From contig NZ_CP009505.1 in the NCBI RefSeq assembly GCF_000970045.1, positions 372,001 through 436,000 on the forward strand: DNA of 64,000 bases, in the 5' to 3' direction. The translations under genes were made by a program, and so were the position numbers. Of the stretch, positions 25,615-35,925 are shown in pieces. The notes below the pieces were generated by a model. It saw nothing but the letters and a program-made list of their open reading frames with translations, did not search any database and was not told where the DNA came from. Every line of letters starts with the position of its first letter. Position 1 is the stretch's first letter. This stretch comes from Methanosarcina sp. MTP4. Lineage in GTDB: Archaea > Halobacteriota > Methanosarcinia > Methanosarcinales > Methanosarcinaceae.

Positions 25615-28188
25615 TTGGCAGGCGATAAATCGAACTCAGCTTCTAACTGTATGCGTCGTGACACTGCAGCAGAGGATGATTCACTCGGATTCAAACCTTA
25701 CGTCGAGGCTATCGCAGAATTTCTTACCAATGAGGACACTTTAGCTCCGATCACTCTTTCTATTGAGGGGCAGTGGGGATGTGGCAAGTCTTCTTTCATG
25801 CAACAATTGAAAAAGAAAATCGAAGAGGGAAATGACCGCAAAAGTAAAAGAAAGAGATATTTCACGGTGTGGTTCAATTGCTGGAGATATGAAAAAGAAG
25901 ATGAGTTATGGGCTGCTTTTGCCCTTAATTTAATGGAGAAGCTGTCGGAACAGCTTTCTTGGAGGGGGCGTCAGTGGGCAAAGATAAACCTGGTATGGCT
26001 AAGACTTAAGTTTAAGTGGAAAAATGAAAGTTCAATCATTCTTCATATTCTTTCACGTGTAATTTTTATCTTAATTATTTTAGCACTTTGGGCTTCATTT
26101 ATTTTATCCATTCCGCATTTGATGGAGCGCTTATTCTCATATTCTATGGGTATATCATTCTCTGTTTCTCCATTTACAGGCCCAATAGATCTTTTTTTAA
26201 ATCTGGTAAATCCTTCAAATTCTACCTCTTCTATTGATGCTAACCTAGTAAATAATTCGACCTCCGTTGGTTTAGTTGATGCTAAATTCAGGACATCTGT
26301 TAATGTTTTGTTAATGTTGGCCGGAATTATTGGTCTTTTACTTCAATCATTTTATCTTATTAAAGAAATTAAAAATTTTGTTGGAAATCCTTTTGATTTC
26401 AGTGAATTTATATCCAATCCGAATTACACGGCACACATATCTTTCATAGAGCACTTCCATTCTGATTTTGACAAGATAATTGAATCCTATGTAGGAAATT
26501 CAAGGGTTTATGTCTTCGTTGATGACCTTGACCGTTGCGAAGTCCCAAAAGCGGCAGAACTCATGCAGGCGCTTAACCTCATGATCTCGGATAAAGCAAA
26601 TGTTTATTTTTCCATAGGTATAGATCGCAAAGTCATCTCTGCAGGACTTGCAGCTAAAAACGAAAAAGTCCTCGGGTACCTGGGTGTCAAGGGACTTAAA
26701 TACGGTTATGATTATATTGAAAAATTCATCCAGCTTCCTTTTAAAGTGCCCAGTCCCAAAAATGAGGATTTTAAGGAATTTATGAATCCTCAAAAGAAGC
26801 AGGATCCTCCCTCAAAAAAGTCCTGGCTATCTGATAATCCATTGAGTAATAATTTAAAGAAAGTATTCAGTAAATTTAAGATTACCCACTCCGGTTCGCA
26901 GACCGATGAAGAAAGCATCCCTCAGGAAAGTACTGAAAGTGCCAAAACCGAGGAAGGGGTTCCTGAGGGTACTGCAAAGGAAGAACCTGAAAAAGAGGAG
27001 AAGATCCTGAACGACAAGGACTGTGATGAAAAATCAGGGGAATGGGATCACATTCTGGAAATGGTTGCTCCAGCTCTTGATAGAAACCCTCGTCGTATGA
27101 AACAGTTCTTCAACCTGTTCCGTTTTCAGAGAACTATAGGCAAAAGAACGGAACTCCTTTCCTATGATCCAGGCACAAATCCTGAAAACAGGTGGAATTG
27201 CAGAAAACTTGCAAAATTTGTGGCAATAAGCATGAATTGGCCTTCCCTGATTTCTGCTCTCAGTTCTAACAGTGAGCTTCTCAACCAGTTACAGGCATAT
27301 GCACTGGATCCGAAAGGTGAAAATAAAAACTTGGAGGAATGGACCAAGGATGAAAAGTTGATCCGCTTATTGAAGTACGGTTGCGTAGAAGAGGGCAATC
27401 TCTCAGAAGAGAAAGCTAACTATACCCTTTCAGGTCTTGACTTTAGTAAGTTGTTGCAGATCTCTCCTGTGGTTGAACCTCCTGATGAGAATTTGTCTAG
27501 TTCGCTATCTGATATGGAATTTGTGCGGATTTCTGCGGGAGATTTCATGATGGGGTCACCTGATGGTGAAGACGGGAGGCGGGATAACGAAGGTCCTGTC
27601 CATAAAGTAACCATTAAAAATCTATTTTACCTTGGTAAATACCCGGTTACTCAGAAACAGTGGAAAAAAGTTATGGGCAATAATCCTTCTCGTTTCAAAG
27701 GTGATACCCTGCCTGTAGAATCTGTTTCCTGGAATGACGTTCAGGAATTTATCAAAAAACTCAATAAAATGGAAGGCACTGACAAGTACCGCCTTCCTTC
27801 TGAAGCTGAATGGGAATATGCCTGCAGGGCTGGTACAACCACCAACTTTTATTTTGGCGACGACGAGTCAAAACTTGGAGACTATGCTTGGTATACAGGT
27901 AACTCCGGTGGGAAGATTCATCCAGTTGGTGAGAAGAATCATAATTCTTGGAACCTTTACGACATGCATGGAAATGTCTGGGAATGGGTTCAGGACAGAT
28001 GGCATGATAACTACGAAGGTGCTCCTTCCGATGGTAGTGCCTGGGAAAATGGAAATGGCTCCTACCGTGTGGTGCGGGGCGGCGGCTGGCACTACGGCTC
28101 CATGAACTGCCGGTCGGCAATCCGCAACGGGCTCGACCTCGACAACCGCGACAACAACGTTGGCTTCCGTCTTCTGAGGAAACCGTAA
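25615..28188 (+). CDS. KAP-family P-loop NTPase fused to an FGE-sulfatase domain; DGR target
   Basis: An 857-residue two-part protein. The KAP NTPase has Walker A GQWGCGKSS at residues 52-60 and Walker B YVFVDDLDRCE near 298-308. Membrane helices are inserted between them (about 141-165 and 229-250), as is typical of KAP. A charged linker (about 385-480) follows. From about residue 634 lies a formylglycine-generating-enzyme/sulfatase-modifying domain (MEFVRISAGDFMMGSP; LPSEAEWEYACRAGTTT; DMHGNVWEWVQDRW). This C-type-lectin-like fold is a standard scaffold for DGR variable regions, and the last 45 residues (RGGGWHYGSMNC onward) are encoded by a variable repeat. The start is uncertain: TTG at 25615 or ATG at 25651. 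It probably acts as a membrane-bound sensor whose lectin-like face is diversified. Confidence 0.88.
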   Translation: MAGDKSNSASNCMRRDTAAEDDSLGFKPYVEAIAEFLTNEDTLAPITLSIEGQWGCGKSSFMQQLKKKIEEGNDRKSKRKRYFTVWFNCWRYEKEDELWAAFALNLMEKLSEQLSWRGRQWAKINLVWLRLKFKWKNESSIILHILSRVIFILIILALWASFILSIPHLMERLFSYSMGISFSVSPFTGPIDLFLNLVNPSNSTSSIDANLVNNSTSVGLVDAKFRTSVNVLLMLAGIIGLLLQSFYLIKEIKNFVGNPFDFSEFISNPNYTAHISFIEHFHSDFDKIIESYVGNSRVYVFVDDLDRCEVPKAAELMQALNLMISDKANVYFSIGIDRKVISAGLAAKNEKVLGYLGVKGLKYGYDYIEKFIQLPFKVPSPKNEDFKEFMNPQKKQDPPSKKSWLSDNPLSNNLKKVFSKFKITHSGSQTDEESIPQESTESAKTEEGVPEGTAKEEPEKEEKILNDKDCDEKSGEWDHILEMVAPALDRNPRRMKQFFNLFRFQRTIGKRTELLSYDPGTNPENRWNCRKLAKFVAISMNWPSLISALSSNSELLNQLQAYALDPKGENKNLEEWTKDEKLIRLLKYGCVEEGNLSEEKANYTLSGLDFSKLLQISPVVEPPDENLSSSLSDMEFVRISAGDFMMGSPDGEDGRRDNEGPVHKVTIKNLFYLGKYPVTQKQWKKVMGNNPSRFKGDTLPVESVSWNDVQEFIKKLNKMEGTDKYRLPSEAEWEYACRAGTTTNFYFGDDESKLGDYAWYTGNSGGKIHPVGEKNHNSWNLYDMHGNVWEWVQDRWHDNYEGAPSDGSAWENGNGSYRVVRGGGWHYGSMNCRSAIRNGLDLDNRDNNVGFRLLRKP
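28054..28178 (+). repeat. DGR variable repeat 1 (VR1), 3' end of the KAP-FGE gene
   Basis: This 125-bp segment aligns without gaps to the template repeat at 31036-31160. I count 18 differences, 14 of them at positions where the template has A. The 3' portion from 28149 (gttggcttccgtcttctgag, plus the preceding 10 bases) is identical to the template. Confidence 0.88.
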
Positions 28189-28382
28189 CCACTTTCCACT
28201 TTACTACTTTACCACTTTACAATGGATGTAGAAAATAACCCCGGCGAAGCCCGAAGCTCGAAGCGTGCGAAGCCGCCGAGCCTGAGGTGCTGAGCCATCC
28301 CACTTTATATATAATCTCATTAAATTTTTCAGTAGTGCTTTTATTGATTTCTTACTGATGAAGTATAGGGCTAGCGATCGTC
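28189..28382 (+). repeat. Downstream flank of VR1, duplicated behind the caspase gene
   Basis: Begins with taaccacttt and repeats of accactttac, passes through a GC-rich stretch (gaagccgccgagcctgagg) and ends in an AT-rich leader (attgatttcttactgatg, gggctagcg) just before the decayed template. The same order occurs at 30719-31035. It is non-coding and may be the leader of the template RNA. Confidence 0.75.
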
Positions 28383-28457
28383 AATAGCTCTTCCCGTGTA
28401 ATATGGGGTAGTAGCTGGATCAACAACGCCAGGAATTGCCGGTCAGCAAACCGCAAA
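28383..28457 (+). repeat. Decayed, truncated DGR template repeat
   Basis: Aligns with about the first 75 bases of the intact template at 31036 (aatagctc..., gtagctgg, caacaacgccaggaa) but has scattered changes, mostly toward A/T, and then loses similarity before the 3' homing end. It follows the KAP-FGE gene as the intact template follows the caspase gene. One base it shares with VR1 but not with the intact template (A instead of T, in the aaccgc segment near 28448) suggests it once templated VR1. Confidence 0.75.
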
Positions 28458-28567
28458 TCGAAGCTATAACACTAAAACTGAAAATTTAATATCTGTAAAA
28501 GAGTAAATCATATATTATATTGTATTATACAGTATTGTAATTCCTGGTAATGTGGAGCTGTTGGCAA

Positions 28568-28966
28568 ATGGAGAATACCTCTGAAAAATTTGATTTTCAA
28601 ATCATCCTTGAATCCGAAGAAGTTGAGGAATCTTCGACTTATTGGCAAAAACAGTGCCATATGCTCTATGATCAGATTCGTAAGAAACTTCCTGAAGGTT
28701 CAATTGACCCTTCAAGTCGTAAGGGTCGAGAGGGAGAAAAGGCTGATATAATCATCTCATTTGATGTTCTTACGTTTACAGGTGTTACTTTAAACTCTTT
28801 TTACGTTCTCATTAAATTTATTGATGTCTGGGAAAGAAACCGGAAAAAGGCAAATGTAAAGCTTAATTCCCGGAATGGGGACGAGTTTGTTCTCTCTAAT
28901 TTGTCTGTTGATGAAGCCCTCGAAATATACCGAAATCTGCAGCAGGAAGATAATGAGCAAGAGTAA
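28568..28966 (+). CDS. Small protein between the KAP and caspase genes, possibly effector-associated
   Basis: About 132 residues. The N-terminal half is charged (LESEEVEESSTYWQKQCHMLY). The second half has a beta strand, a long helix and a beta hairpin (VLTFTGVTLNSFYVLIKFID; VKLNSRNGDEFVLSNLS) and ends in a helix. The layout resembles the small constant components (EACC1-like) reported next to caspase and trypsin effectors in NTP-dependent conflict systems; this is inference from shape and context. It is not a reverse transcriptase and does not look like the DGR accessory protein Avd. ATG at 28568 was chosen; ATG at 28550 is an alternative. It ends five bases before the caspase gene. Confidence 0.7.
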   Translation: MENTSEKFDFQIILESEEVEESSTYWQKQCHMLYDQIRKKLPEGSIDPSSRKGREGEKADIIISFDVLTFTGVTLNSFYVLIKFIDVWERNRKKANVKLNSRNGDEFVLSNLSVDEALEIYRNLQQEDNEQE

Positions 28967-28971
28967 GTACT

Positions 28972-30720
28972 ATGGCTGGAAAAAAGTTTGGGATTGTCAT
29001 AGGTACTAATGAGTATTCCGACAGCAAAATCCCCAATTTACGCTTTGCACAAAAAGATGCAAAAGAAATAAAAAATATTCTTCTTGACTCTGATATCTGT
29101 GGATTTGATAAAGTTGTAGATTCCACAGACAAAACTAGCGTACAGACTTTTTGTGACATTGAGGGATTACTTAATAAAGCGGAGTACGACGATTCACTCC
29201 TTATTTATTTTTCAGGGCATGGTGAACCTGACACGCAGCATGATCTCTGTTTGTTGTTTAACAACACCAGAATGGACCGGTTGCTTGCTACTTCGTTAAA
29301 CTACTCAATGATCAGGAAGTGTATAGATGCTTCAAAGTGCAAGACATTTGTTGTCATTCTCGATTGCTGTTACAGCGGGGCTGCAGGCATAAAAGGTAAT
29401 AATCTAAAAAAAATCCTTGCCAGGTCTTCCGGTTCGGGTACGGCTATACTATCCGCATCAAGTGAATTTGATGTAGCCAAAGAGGATGAAAAACTGGAAC
29501 ATGGTGTTTTTACACATTATCTGGTCGAAGGACTGAGGAGTGGGGCAGTTGCAGGTGACAGAAACGGAGACATATCTCTTGTAGACTTGTATAATTATGC
29601 TCATAAAAATACTACAGCCAGATGCTCTCAAACTCCATATATAAAAGTGGAAGGTGAAGGCAGGATCATTATCGGGAAGAACCCTTTGAAGGTTAAAGAG
29701 AAGGAGTTCATTCAGAAAAAGAACAAATTGGTTAAAAAAATCAGAAAAGAACTCCCTGCCAGTGTTTATGATATATCTATGATTGTTCTCATTGATGCCT
29801 ATGAAAAACCAGAGGAATTAACAGAAAATGATGAAGAAATAAGGAGTTCTCTGGAAGATCTTCTGGCTGGCAGAATTAGTGTTAAGACCTATATTCCTAC
29901 TGTTCAATGCTACTTGGAAAATGAAGATATTGAAAAATCGTATGTTCTGGAAAAATATCGGGAACAAGAAATTCCAAAAACCTTCACCAGTCCTTTTACT
30001 GGAATGGAATTTATATTAATCCCTGCAGGCGAGTTTGAGATGGGCTCCCTTCTTGATGAAAAGGACAGGTACGACTACGAAATTCCGGCTCATAATGTAC
30101 AATTTAAGAATCCTTTCTACATGGGCAAGTATCCGGTTACTCAAAAACAATGGGTAGCAGTAATGGGTGATAATCCTTCCAGTTTCAAAGGTGATGATAG
30201 ACCTGTAGAATCTGTTTCCTGGAAGGATGTTCAGGAATTTATCAAAAAACTCAATGAAAAGGAAGACACGGATAAGTACCTTTTACCCTCTGAAGCTGAA
30301 TGGGAGTATGCATGCCGTGCCGGAACGACCACTAAATATTCTTTTGGTGATGACGAGTCAAAACTTGGGGATTATGCATGGTACAGTGGTTATTCAACTT
30401 TCGAAGAATGGAAGGAAAATCGGGACAAAATTTTGAAAGAAGGTAAAACTCATCTAGTTGGACAGAAGAAGCCTAATCCCTGGGGCCTTTACGACATGCA
30501 CGGAAATGTGTGGGAATGGGTTCAGGACAGATACCATTCAGATTATAATGGTGCTCCTTCTGATGGTAGTGCCTGGGAAGATGGAAATAGCTCCAACCGT
30601 GTCATTCGGGGCGGCAGCTGGGGCGACCTCGCCAGGTACTGCCGGTCGGCTTCCCGCGCCGGGCCCGGCCCCGACTCCCGCGTCAGCTACGTTGGCTTCC
30701 GTCTTCTGAGGAAACTGTAA
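28972..30720 (+). CDS. Caspase-like protease fused to an FGE-sulfatase domain; DGR target
   Basis: A 582-residue protein. The N-terminal peptidase C14 (metacaspase-like) domain has the catalytic histidine in SGHGE (His83) and cysteine in DCCYSG (Cys133), and both are intact. A helical middle section (about 240-340) leads to an FGE-sulfatase domain from about residue 343 (FTGMEFILIPAGEFEMGS; LPSEAEWEYACRAGTTT; DMHGNVWEWVQDRYH). The last 45 residues are encoded by a DGR variable repeat. Caspase-FGE fusions are established DGR targets in bacteria. The likely role is a protease whose lectin-like domain recognises a changing ligand, followed by proteolysis or cell death. It is five bases from the small upstream gene and probably co-transcribed. 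Confidence 0.9.
   Translation: MAGKKFGIVIGTNEYSDSKIPNLRFAQKDAKEIKNILLDSDICGFDKVVDSTDKTSVQTFCDIEGLLNKAEYDDSLLIYFSGHGEPDTQHDLCLLFNNTRMDRLLATSLNYSMIRKCIDASKCKTFVVILDCCYSGAAGIKGNNLKKILARSSGSGTAILSASSEFDVAKEDEKLEHGVFTHYLVEGLRSGAVAGDRNGDISLVDLYNYAHKNTTARCSQTPYIKVEGEGRIIIGKNPLKVKEKEFIQKKNKLVKKIRKELPASVYDISMIVLIDAYEKPEELTENDEEIRSSLEDLLAGRISVKTYIPTVQCYLENEDIEKSYVLEKYREQEIPKTFTSPFTGMEFILIPAGEFEMGSLLDEKDRYDYEIPAHNVQFKNPFYMGKYPVTQKQWVAVMGDNPSSFKGDDRPVESVSWKDVQEFIKKLNEKEDTDKYLLPSEAEWEYACRAGTTTKYSFGDDESKLGDYAWYSGYSTFEEWKENRDKILKEGKTHLVGQKKPNPWGLYDMHGNVWEWVQDRYHSDYNGAPSDGSAWEDGNSSNRVIRGGSWGDLARYCRSASRAGPGPDSRVSYVGFRLLRKL
30586..30710 (+). repeat. DGR variable repeat 2 (VR2), 3' end of the caspase-FGE gene
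   Basis: Aligned base for base over 125 bp with the template at 31036-31160, it has 21 substitutions and every one falls on a template A (A to G, C or T). No C, G or T of the template is changed. The first 15 and last 20 bases are identical. This is the adenine-specific signature of mutagenic retrohoming. Confidence 0.95.
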
Positions 30721-31035
30721 CCACTTTCGACTTTACCACTTTACCACTTTACGGTGGCCATAGAAAATAACCCCGGTGAAGCCCGAAGGCCCGAAGCGTG
30801 CGAAGCCGCCGGGCCTGAGGTGCTGAGCCGCGCCTGAGTCTTCCTCGTTTTTTTAAGTCCTCTTGAGGGAGCGCAGCGAGCGAAAAGGACGCGTGCTCCC
30901 GATGCGCAATTCGGGTGCGCAAGCCGCCGAGCCTGAGGTGCTGAGCCACCCCACTTTGTAAATATAATTCCCTTAAATTCTTCAGTAATGCTTTTATTGA
31001 TTTCTTACTGATAAAGTACAGGGCTAGCGGTCGTC
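30721..31035 (+). repeat. Downstream flank of VR2 and leader of the template repeat
   Basis: Second copy of the flank seen behind VR1: accactttac repeats, the GC-rich gaagcccgaag...cctgaggtgctgagcc block, and the AT-rich leader ending gggctagcggtcgtc. It contains an extra insert of about 120 bases (roughly 30832-30953) carrying a 61-bp repeat at 30855-30915 and a second copy of the gccgagcctgaggtgctgag block. Confidence 0.75.
30855..30915. repeat. 61-bp dispersed repeat, copy 1
   Basis: Begins aagtcctcttgagggagcg and ends caattcggg. A near-identical copy lies at 31489-31549. It sits inside the insert that distinguishes the second flank from the first. Confidence 0.8.
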
Positions 31036-31160
31036 AATAGCTCCAACCGTGTAATACGGGGCGGCAGCTGGAACAACAACGCCAGGAACTGCCGGTCGGC
31101 TAACCGCAACAGGAACGACCCCGACAACCGCGACAACAACGTTGGCTTCCGTCTTCTGAG
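31036..31160 (+). repeat. DGR template repeat (TR)
   Basis: Non-coding 125-bp copy of the 3' ends of both FGE genes, beginning aatagctccaaccgt and ending gttggcttccgtcttctgag. It is rich in AAC codon positions (translated in the target frame: RGGSWNNNARNCRSANR...), the usual template design because A-directed changes of AAC give many residues and no stops. After the common 3' end the sequence diverges (ttcaccgcc here, gaaa in both targets), as between the template and target homing sites. No reverse transcriptase gene follows. Confidence 0.93.
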
Positions 31161-31551
31161 TTCACCGCCACTGCCCGAAGTTACAGTGTTTACGGATGCT
31201 GTGCCAGTGCCCCGGCGGTGACCAGACCGCAGTCCTGCGCCGGTGTCTGCCGGACAAAGAGAATTCGAACCGCTGCCTCTGGTAGGGCTAAATGCTGATT
31301 ATGCTGAGGTTTCGAAGGCGGTAGCGGTTCATATAGTCAGGTGCTTCTTCTGGTTTACACACTTTTTTTTCTTGCTGCTTCATTATATTCTACTTTGGAG
31401 AAATGCCGCACCGAAAGTGCGGGACAAGACAGACGGAAGATGATATTCAAGGTTGCTCCGGCTCCAATTTCTCCCCTCACCGAACTTCAAGTCCTCTTGA
31501 GGGAGCGCAGCGACCGAAAAGGACGCGGGCTCCCGAATCGCAATTCGGGCG
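31161..31551. other. Template 3' flank with inverted repeats
   Basis: CACCGCC at about 31163-31169 can pair with GGCGGTG at 31214-31220. A second imperfect pair joins gaaccgctgcc (about 31267) with ggtagcggttc (about 31321). These could fold the 3' part of the template RNA. No convincing gene is present. Confidence 0.45.
31489..31549. repeat. 61-bp dispersed repeat, copy 2
   Basis: Direct copy of 30855-30915 with only a few differences. It ends immediately before the stop of the radical SAM gene. The two copies bracket the template repeat. Confidence 0.8.
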
Positions 31552-35675: not shown

Positions 35676-35925
35676 TGAGTACTGATTATCAAATACTGAT
35701 TATCAAATACTGATTATCAAGTACTGATTATCAAGTACTGGTTATTAAGTACTGGTTATCAAGTACTGGTTATCAAGTACTGGTTATCAAGTACTGATTA
35801 TCAAGTACTGATTATCAAGTACTGATTATCAAGTACTGATTATCAAGTACTGATTATCAAGTACTGATTATCAAGTACTGGTTATTAAGTACTGGTTATC
35901 AAGTACTGGTTATTGAGTACTGGTG
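35676..35925. repeat. 14-bp tandem repeat array between spt5 and rpl11
   Basis: About 17 head-to-tail copies of attatcaagtactg with a few variant units (gttattaagtactg). It lies in the spacer that should carry the rpl11 promoter or leader. Confidence 0.9.

Follow-up and report, generated by a model that had tools for sequence, protein, structure and literature searches.

Diversity-generating retroelements (DGRs) are systems that randomise one patch of a protein at the adenines of a template. They are almost always detected through their reverse transcriptase (RT), and because of this RT-less cassettes escape surveys. Degenerate DGR loci without an RT and/or a template repeat (TR) have been described in Thiohalocapsa PB-PSB1 (Dore et al. 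2024, PMC10907252); the CLec targets of these loci are putative conflict-system sensors and are still diversified, some of them apparently in trans (PMC10907252). Cyanobacterial remote variable proteins are CLec targets located at a distance from the RT, and orthocaspase-CLec targets are known as well (PMC7517822). More generally, the proposed DGR-diversified conflict systems typically comprise STAND/KAP NTPases and caspases fused to CLec sensor domains (PMC10907252, PMC7159879, PMC7517822). For the template RNA the reference is the Sp RNA of Bordetella phage BPP-1, which adjoins the TR on its 3' side, folds into a structure, recruits the bRT-Avd complex and primes cDNA synthesis (summarised in PMC12875486). 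Here we present a locus from a 64-kb stretch of the genome of Methanosarcina sp. MTP4. The whole stretch is referred to as the window, and the genome from which it was taken consists of one contig of 4.21 Mb and is 99.9% complete.

A scan of both strands of the whole window for template-type repeats returned a sole credible pair, VR2 and TR2. The other match of the scan, with 5 mismatches, belongs to a tandem array and not to a pair of template and variable repeat (VR). VR2 (30586..30710, plus strand) is the variable repeat of target gene 2 and covers residues 539-580 of its 582-aa product. It aligns without gaps over 125 bp to the intact template repeat TR2 (31036..31160, plus strand), and the two copies differ by 21 substitutions. 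All 21 occurred at adenines of TR2, the downstream copy, with A->C, A->T and A->G observed seven times each, and 0 of the 90 non-A positions were changed. The probability that all of these changes hit the 35 adenines by chance is 6.5e-15. The first 17 and the last 22 bases are identical and the likeness ends exactly at each end of the block. VR and TR thus have a common 3' end, as expected of an IMH: the 22 terminal bases agree and the divergence begins directly afterwards. A previous sequence-only reading of this DNA had reported the gapless alignment with its 21 substitutions, the restriction of the changes to adenines and the divergence right after the common 3' end. The recount over all 125 positions gave the same result for each of these. 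The same reading had put the identical ends at 15 and 20 bases; they are indeed identical and slightly longer than claimed.

The TR2 copy is non-coding while VR2 forms the end of the 582-aa open reading frame. In the reading frame of the target gene, TR2 contains 12 AAY codons and none that could become a stop by a change at A, and 19 of the 21 changes in VR2 are found at codon positions 1 or 2. Judged by this codon make-up, AAY-rich and without stop-capable codons, TR2 is of the design of a DGR template. We found A-only TR/VR pairs three times, in three genomes, with 0 exceptions among 55 substitutions. As far as certainty can be had from sequence, the pattern in VR2 and TR2 represents adenine-specific DGR mutagenesis (mutagenic retrohoming).

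Target gene 2 (28972..30720, plus strand) encodes a caspase (peptidase C14; PF00656, 7.5e-11) with a C-terminal FGE-sulfatase domain (PF03781, 7.3e-55), and the caspase catalytic motifs SGHG and DCCYSG are both present. These matches bear out the assignment of the VR2 copy to a caspase-FGE gene in the earlier reading, which had also described the downstream copy correctly as non-coding. VR2 lies inside the FGE-sulfatase domain, at the 3' end of a target with a C-type-lectin fold. When the protein was compared to solved structures the second-best match was the DGR variable protein TvpA (2y3c, E 2e-28), with an alignment that spans the variable region. The caspase fusion had been singled out as notable; it is present, but less special than assumed because cyanobacteria also have DGR targets of the orthocaspase-CLec type (PMC7517822).

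Target gene 1 (25615..28188, plus strand) encodes an 857-aa KAP-family P-loop NTPase (PF07693, 4.6e-36) in which the Walker A motif GQWGCGKS is intact. Its C-terminal FGE-sulfatase domain, again of the C-type-lectin fold (PF03781, 8.7e-52), is paralogous to that of target gene 2. VR1, the variable repeat of this gene (28054..28178, plus strand), was located by comparison with TR2 and shows 18 differences from it. Of these, 14 fall on adenines of the TR and 4 on non-adenines, so that 86 of the 90 non-adenine sites match. By this comparison the KAP-NTPase-FGE gene is an older DGR target and VR1 the trace of an older diversification. TR1 (28383..28456, plus strand) is a truncated and decayed template repeat of 74 nt. 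It departs from TR2 at 11 positions, and most of these changes are C>T or G>A. Between both targets a 138-aa protein is encoded (28550..28966, plus strand). Its match to the EACC1-like family PF19953 is sub-threshold (E 0.23, 11.9 bits, cut-off 23.6), and an EACC1-like identity would be a lead only. We rejected a named defence system at the locus, as PADLOC gave general NTPase and caspase matches only and no complete named system. Two other repeats were observed in the window. A 64-nt non-coding repeat (TCCTCTTGAGGGAGCGCAGCGAGCGAAAAGGAC...) occurs in two copies with 92% identity (30852-30915 and 31486-31549) which flank the unit of TR2 and RNA, and it is also found in related genomes near FGE genes. 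A tandem array at 35678-35922 contains 17.5 copies of the 14-nt unit AGTACTGATTATCA with 95% matches; it is intergenic and located upstream of a minus-strand 161-aa open reading frame, apparently ribosomal protein L11.

A DGR RT and Avd are absent from the 64-kb window. The RT search across the whole genome returned two RTs only: a 591-aa intron maturase with an HNH region and a 438-aa group-II-like RT that adjoins type III CRISPR-like genes. Both score above the curated group II maturase cut-off and bear QGG.ISP, not the DGR motif 4 ([ILV]GxxxSQ), and neither is a dedicated DGR RT. With the BPP-1 RT and a same-family DGR RT as queries we detected no DGR RT or RT fragment in the genome. There was no PF22296 match, and hence no Avd accessory, in the genome either, and the accessory HRDC is represented by fragments elsewhere in the genome only (37- and 46-residue matches). 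Among 112 Methanosarcinaceae genomes a DGR RT and Avd were found in a single one, that of Methanolobus psychrotolerans YSF-03. Since the genome has no DGR RT, the window cassette must, as far as its sequence tells, either have lost its enzyme or have been served by an enzyme acting from elsewhere. The 'archaeal DGR' of the sequence-only reading is thus borne out in part: the A-specific hypermutation, the caspase-FGE target and the TR of DGR design are strongly supported, but as RT and Avd were not found, the cassette is RT-less and not a complete archaeal DGR. That reading had noticed neither the lack of the enzyme nor the truncated TR1 nor the structured RNA downstream of TR2. A viral origin of the RT was considered and rejected, the closest IMG/VR and phage RTs being at most 48% identical. 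Separately, we noted that Caudoviricetes sp. vir525 (host Methanosarcinales) carries a DGR-like RT beside a tail gene, which is 37% identical to the Methanolobus RT. Searches with TR2 and the RNA in plasmid and phage collections gave only short TR-like matches, on plasmids of Nostoc, Acaryochloris and Prosthecochloris.

The 171 nt that follow TR2 (31161..31331, plus strand) are conserved, and an alignment of ten relatives supports a structured domain of four helices with 37 pairs. Compensatory changes on both sides were observed for 24 of the 37 pairs and 92% of the cells pair. Sliding the helix partners by one base lowers the pairing to 34-35%, and in the shuffle test 0 of 500 shuffles reached the observed values. 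A covariance model built from this alignment was matched at 26 places in 13 of the 112 Methanosarcinaceae genomes. It also matched directly after the TR in RT-bearing DGRs outside the training set (e.g. L099, L131, L108). Further matches lie downstream of the RT on plasmids of Prosthecochloris (a conjugative one), Anabaena and Nostoc. In bacterial as well as archaeal DGRs that possess an RT the element comes after the TR, the place of a 3' spacer RNA, and because of this an independent mobile repeat is unlikely as the main explanation. The model had no match in the vir525 DGR, the IMG/VR locus L146 or the BPP-1 region searched. No Rfam family matches the domain; an sR14-like identity was rejected, as it was suggested by a lone weak match with a score below the cut-off. 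The domain is likely the counterpart of the DGR spacer (Sp) RNA in another DGR lineage and, judged by its position and by analogy with BPP-1, should recruit RT-Avd.

Upstream of TR2 lies a leader of about 95 nt with a TATA-like box, TTTGTAAATATAAT (30955..30968, plus strand), which recurs in conserved form before TR1 and before the TR of the sister species. We infer that this box is the promoter of a stand-alone template RNA. The leader is 89% identical to that of TR1 (28290..28382, plus strand) and 76% identical to that of the sister-species TR. In complete cassettes the end of the RT gene occupies the position of the leader. The 9-nt CAGGGCTAG (31019..31027, plus strand) aligns with the end of the Methanolobus psychrotolerans RT (Gln-Gly-stop) and may be a scrap of such a gene end; being short, it is suggestive only.

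The cassette of Methanolobus psychrotolerans YSF-03 (NZ_MBKP01000045.1) has the order FGE target, HRDC, Avd, RT, TR and RNA. Its RT is of the DGR type (IGNLTSQ, YMDD), and its TR and VR differ by 17 changes, all of them A-only. The archaeon LFW-280_2_2 shows the same order of genes, and our literature search found no description of either DGR. In the sister species (G001) there is an RT-less TR/VR pair with 17 changes, all at A; RVT_1 gave no match at all in this draft genome, which is 97% complete and in 70 contigs. The position of the locus, from a HEAT-repeat gene to a radical-SAM/ribosomal-protein cluster, is kept in several related genomes. The RNA is found at this place in the window genome, in G083, which belongs to another genus, and in G096; G001 has a KAP-FGE gene and a truncated HRDC gene there. 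G083 contains a single repeat (L060:7302-7597) in which VR-type sequence on the upstream side is joined to TR-type RNA on the downstream side; it appears to result from a VR/TR recombination that deleted the intervening space. G096 carries an RNA copy without a TR, and at other places HRDC is fused to the end of the RNA. The RNAs of G083 and the window are 97% identical although the flanking genes differ at 38-54% of the four-fold sites, which suggests either that the RNA was under strong selection up to recent times or that it was transferred. Further RNA copies were observed on the minus strand of the window genome at L050:4030-4186 (G000:C1:3211029-3211185) and L050:5950-6097 (3212949-3213096). 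One is without a TR, one is fused to the first 37 HRDC codons, and two FGE target genes adjoin; by this make-up the copies are remnants of other DGR cassettes.

The explanation towards which we lean, if only by a little, is an RT-less (split) DGR whose template RNA was served in trans by a DGR RT-Avd. The template would be a stand-alone RNA gene of ~350 nt, composed of the TATA-like leader, TR2 and the structured Sp-like domain. A DGR RT-Avd complex would bind the 3' RNA domain, the RT would copy TR2 into cDNA with errors at adenines, and this cDNA would take the place of VR2 in the terminal part of the caspase-FGE gene. In the protein, a putative intracellular sensor with the caspase as its effector, the new VR2 would alter the patch that binds the ligand. 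The RT presumably worked in trans on a unit that was already RT-less, and its source would be a locus, plasmid or virus outside this assembly, or one that has since been lost. Because there is no RT in the sequenced genome, the cassette is probably idle in the sequenced strain unless an RT is resupplied.

The leaders carry much of this argument. As TR1, TR2 and the TR of G001 have a leader in common, the RT-less arrangement appears to be older than the split of these units. Furthermore, every non-A difference between TR2 and the TR of G001 is mirrored in the respective own VR, except at sites that are A in the template, which indicates that copying from TR to VR continued after the units had diverged. 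Retrohoming thus apparently outlasted the loss of the RT from these units, either with an RT in trans or by the import of whole packages. The window pair has no non-A differences (0/90, 95% upper bound 3.3%) compared to a divergence of 11-20% at four-fold sites between the window and G001 species. Assuming near-neutral drift of non-A sites, the last retrohoming would be much younger than the species split. VR1 with its 4 non-A differences and the dead TR1 point against the trans reading and fit decay.

Decay is central to the alternative that survives best, which we nonetheless consider doubtful. According to it the DGR is recently dead: it was cis-complete up to recent times, this lineage and, independently, relatives of it then lost RT, Avd and HRDC by deletion, and the A-only pattern is a fresh fossil with nothing acting in trans. 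RT and Avd are missing from 111 of the 112 genomes, and decayed pieces are common, namely the RNA copies without a TR, the HRDC-RNA fusions, the VR/TR recombinant of G083, the truncated TR1 and the truncated HRDC in G001. However, a single RT-less leader precedes TR1, TR2 and the TR of G001, so that the loss appears older than their divergence, and neither VR2/TR2 nor the G001 pair contains non-A differences, compared to the 11-20% at four-fold sites between the two species.

We regard it as unlikely that target, VR2, TR2 and RNA were recombined in together and that all retrohoming took place in an RT-active donor. The RT-less leader common to the units could indeed reflect the transfer of a target-TR package from an RT-bearing donor, conjugative plasmids, pPAES01 for example, transport DGRs of this clade, and the near-identity of the RNA with that of another genus is compatible with import. 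Vertical descent with purifying selection explains this identity equally well, though, the RNA occupies the same chromosomal place in the window genome, G083 and G096, and no donor was found in phage or plasmid collections. That a group-II-type RT of the genome was recruited as the mutagenic enzyme seems very improbable to us. The two RTs described above are the only ones present, but both score as group II maturases with QGG.ISP in place of the DGR motif, and G001 shows the same hypermutation without an RVT_1 match, which is not absolute in a draft genome. Finally, an ordinary gene-fragment duplication with random divergence, conceivable in principle given the paralogous FGE domains and named in the earlier reading as what would overturn it, is refuted by the pattern (P ~6e-15 for the adenine confinement; 0/55 exceptions over the three A-only pairs), as is conversion without reverse transcription, since plain gene conversion would copy adenines as well.

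Should the RT act in trans, as in the split DGR that we favour, a DGR could consist of two parts, a template-target unit that is not autonomous and a source of the enzyme elsewhere, similar to satellite mobile elements. A borrowed enzyme could then randomise caspase and NTPase sensors inside archaeal cells. We tentatively put forward as a possibility that Methanosarcinaceae maintain satellite DGRs, that is, autonomous template-RNA genes which are under selection in spite of the lack of a DGR RT in their genomes and which are diversified in trans by an RT-Avd supplied only intermittently, by plasmids, viruses or complete cassettes in passage. On the conjugative plasmid pPAES01 of Prosthecochloris aestuarii a DGR is present in the order FGE, HRDC, Avd, RT and RNA, and this could be a route by which an RT arrives. 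The RNA model finds RT-less cassettes by their template RNA instead of the RT. The alignment yields a structure, backed by covariation in archaea and in several phyla of bacteria, of the RNA domain which by the BPP-1 analogy should recruit RT-Avd.

Compared to the known systems, the cyanobacterial remote variable proteins differ from the window in being bacterial and in occurring in genomes with an RT. The Sp RNA of BPP-1 resembles the window RNA as a structured RNA immediately 3' of the TR; the model covers another DGR lineage and is without a match in the BPP-1 region searched. Thiohalocapsa PB-PSB1 has a complete RT locus in the same genome and its degenerate loci may use a remote TR, whereas the TR of the window is local and an RT was not found in the genome; both have RT-less loci with diversified CLec targets. 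In the DGRs of Methanolobus psychrotolerans and LFW-280_2_2 HRDC, Avd and RT lie between the target and the TR, whereas the window has none of them there, but these DGRs agree with the window cassette in an FGE target with an A-only VR/TR pair, in a TR that is 84% identical and in the homologous RNA after the TR.
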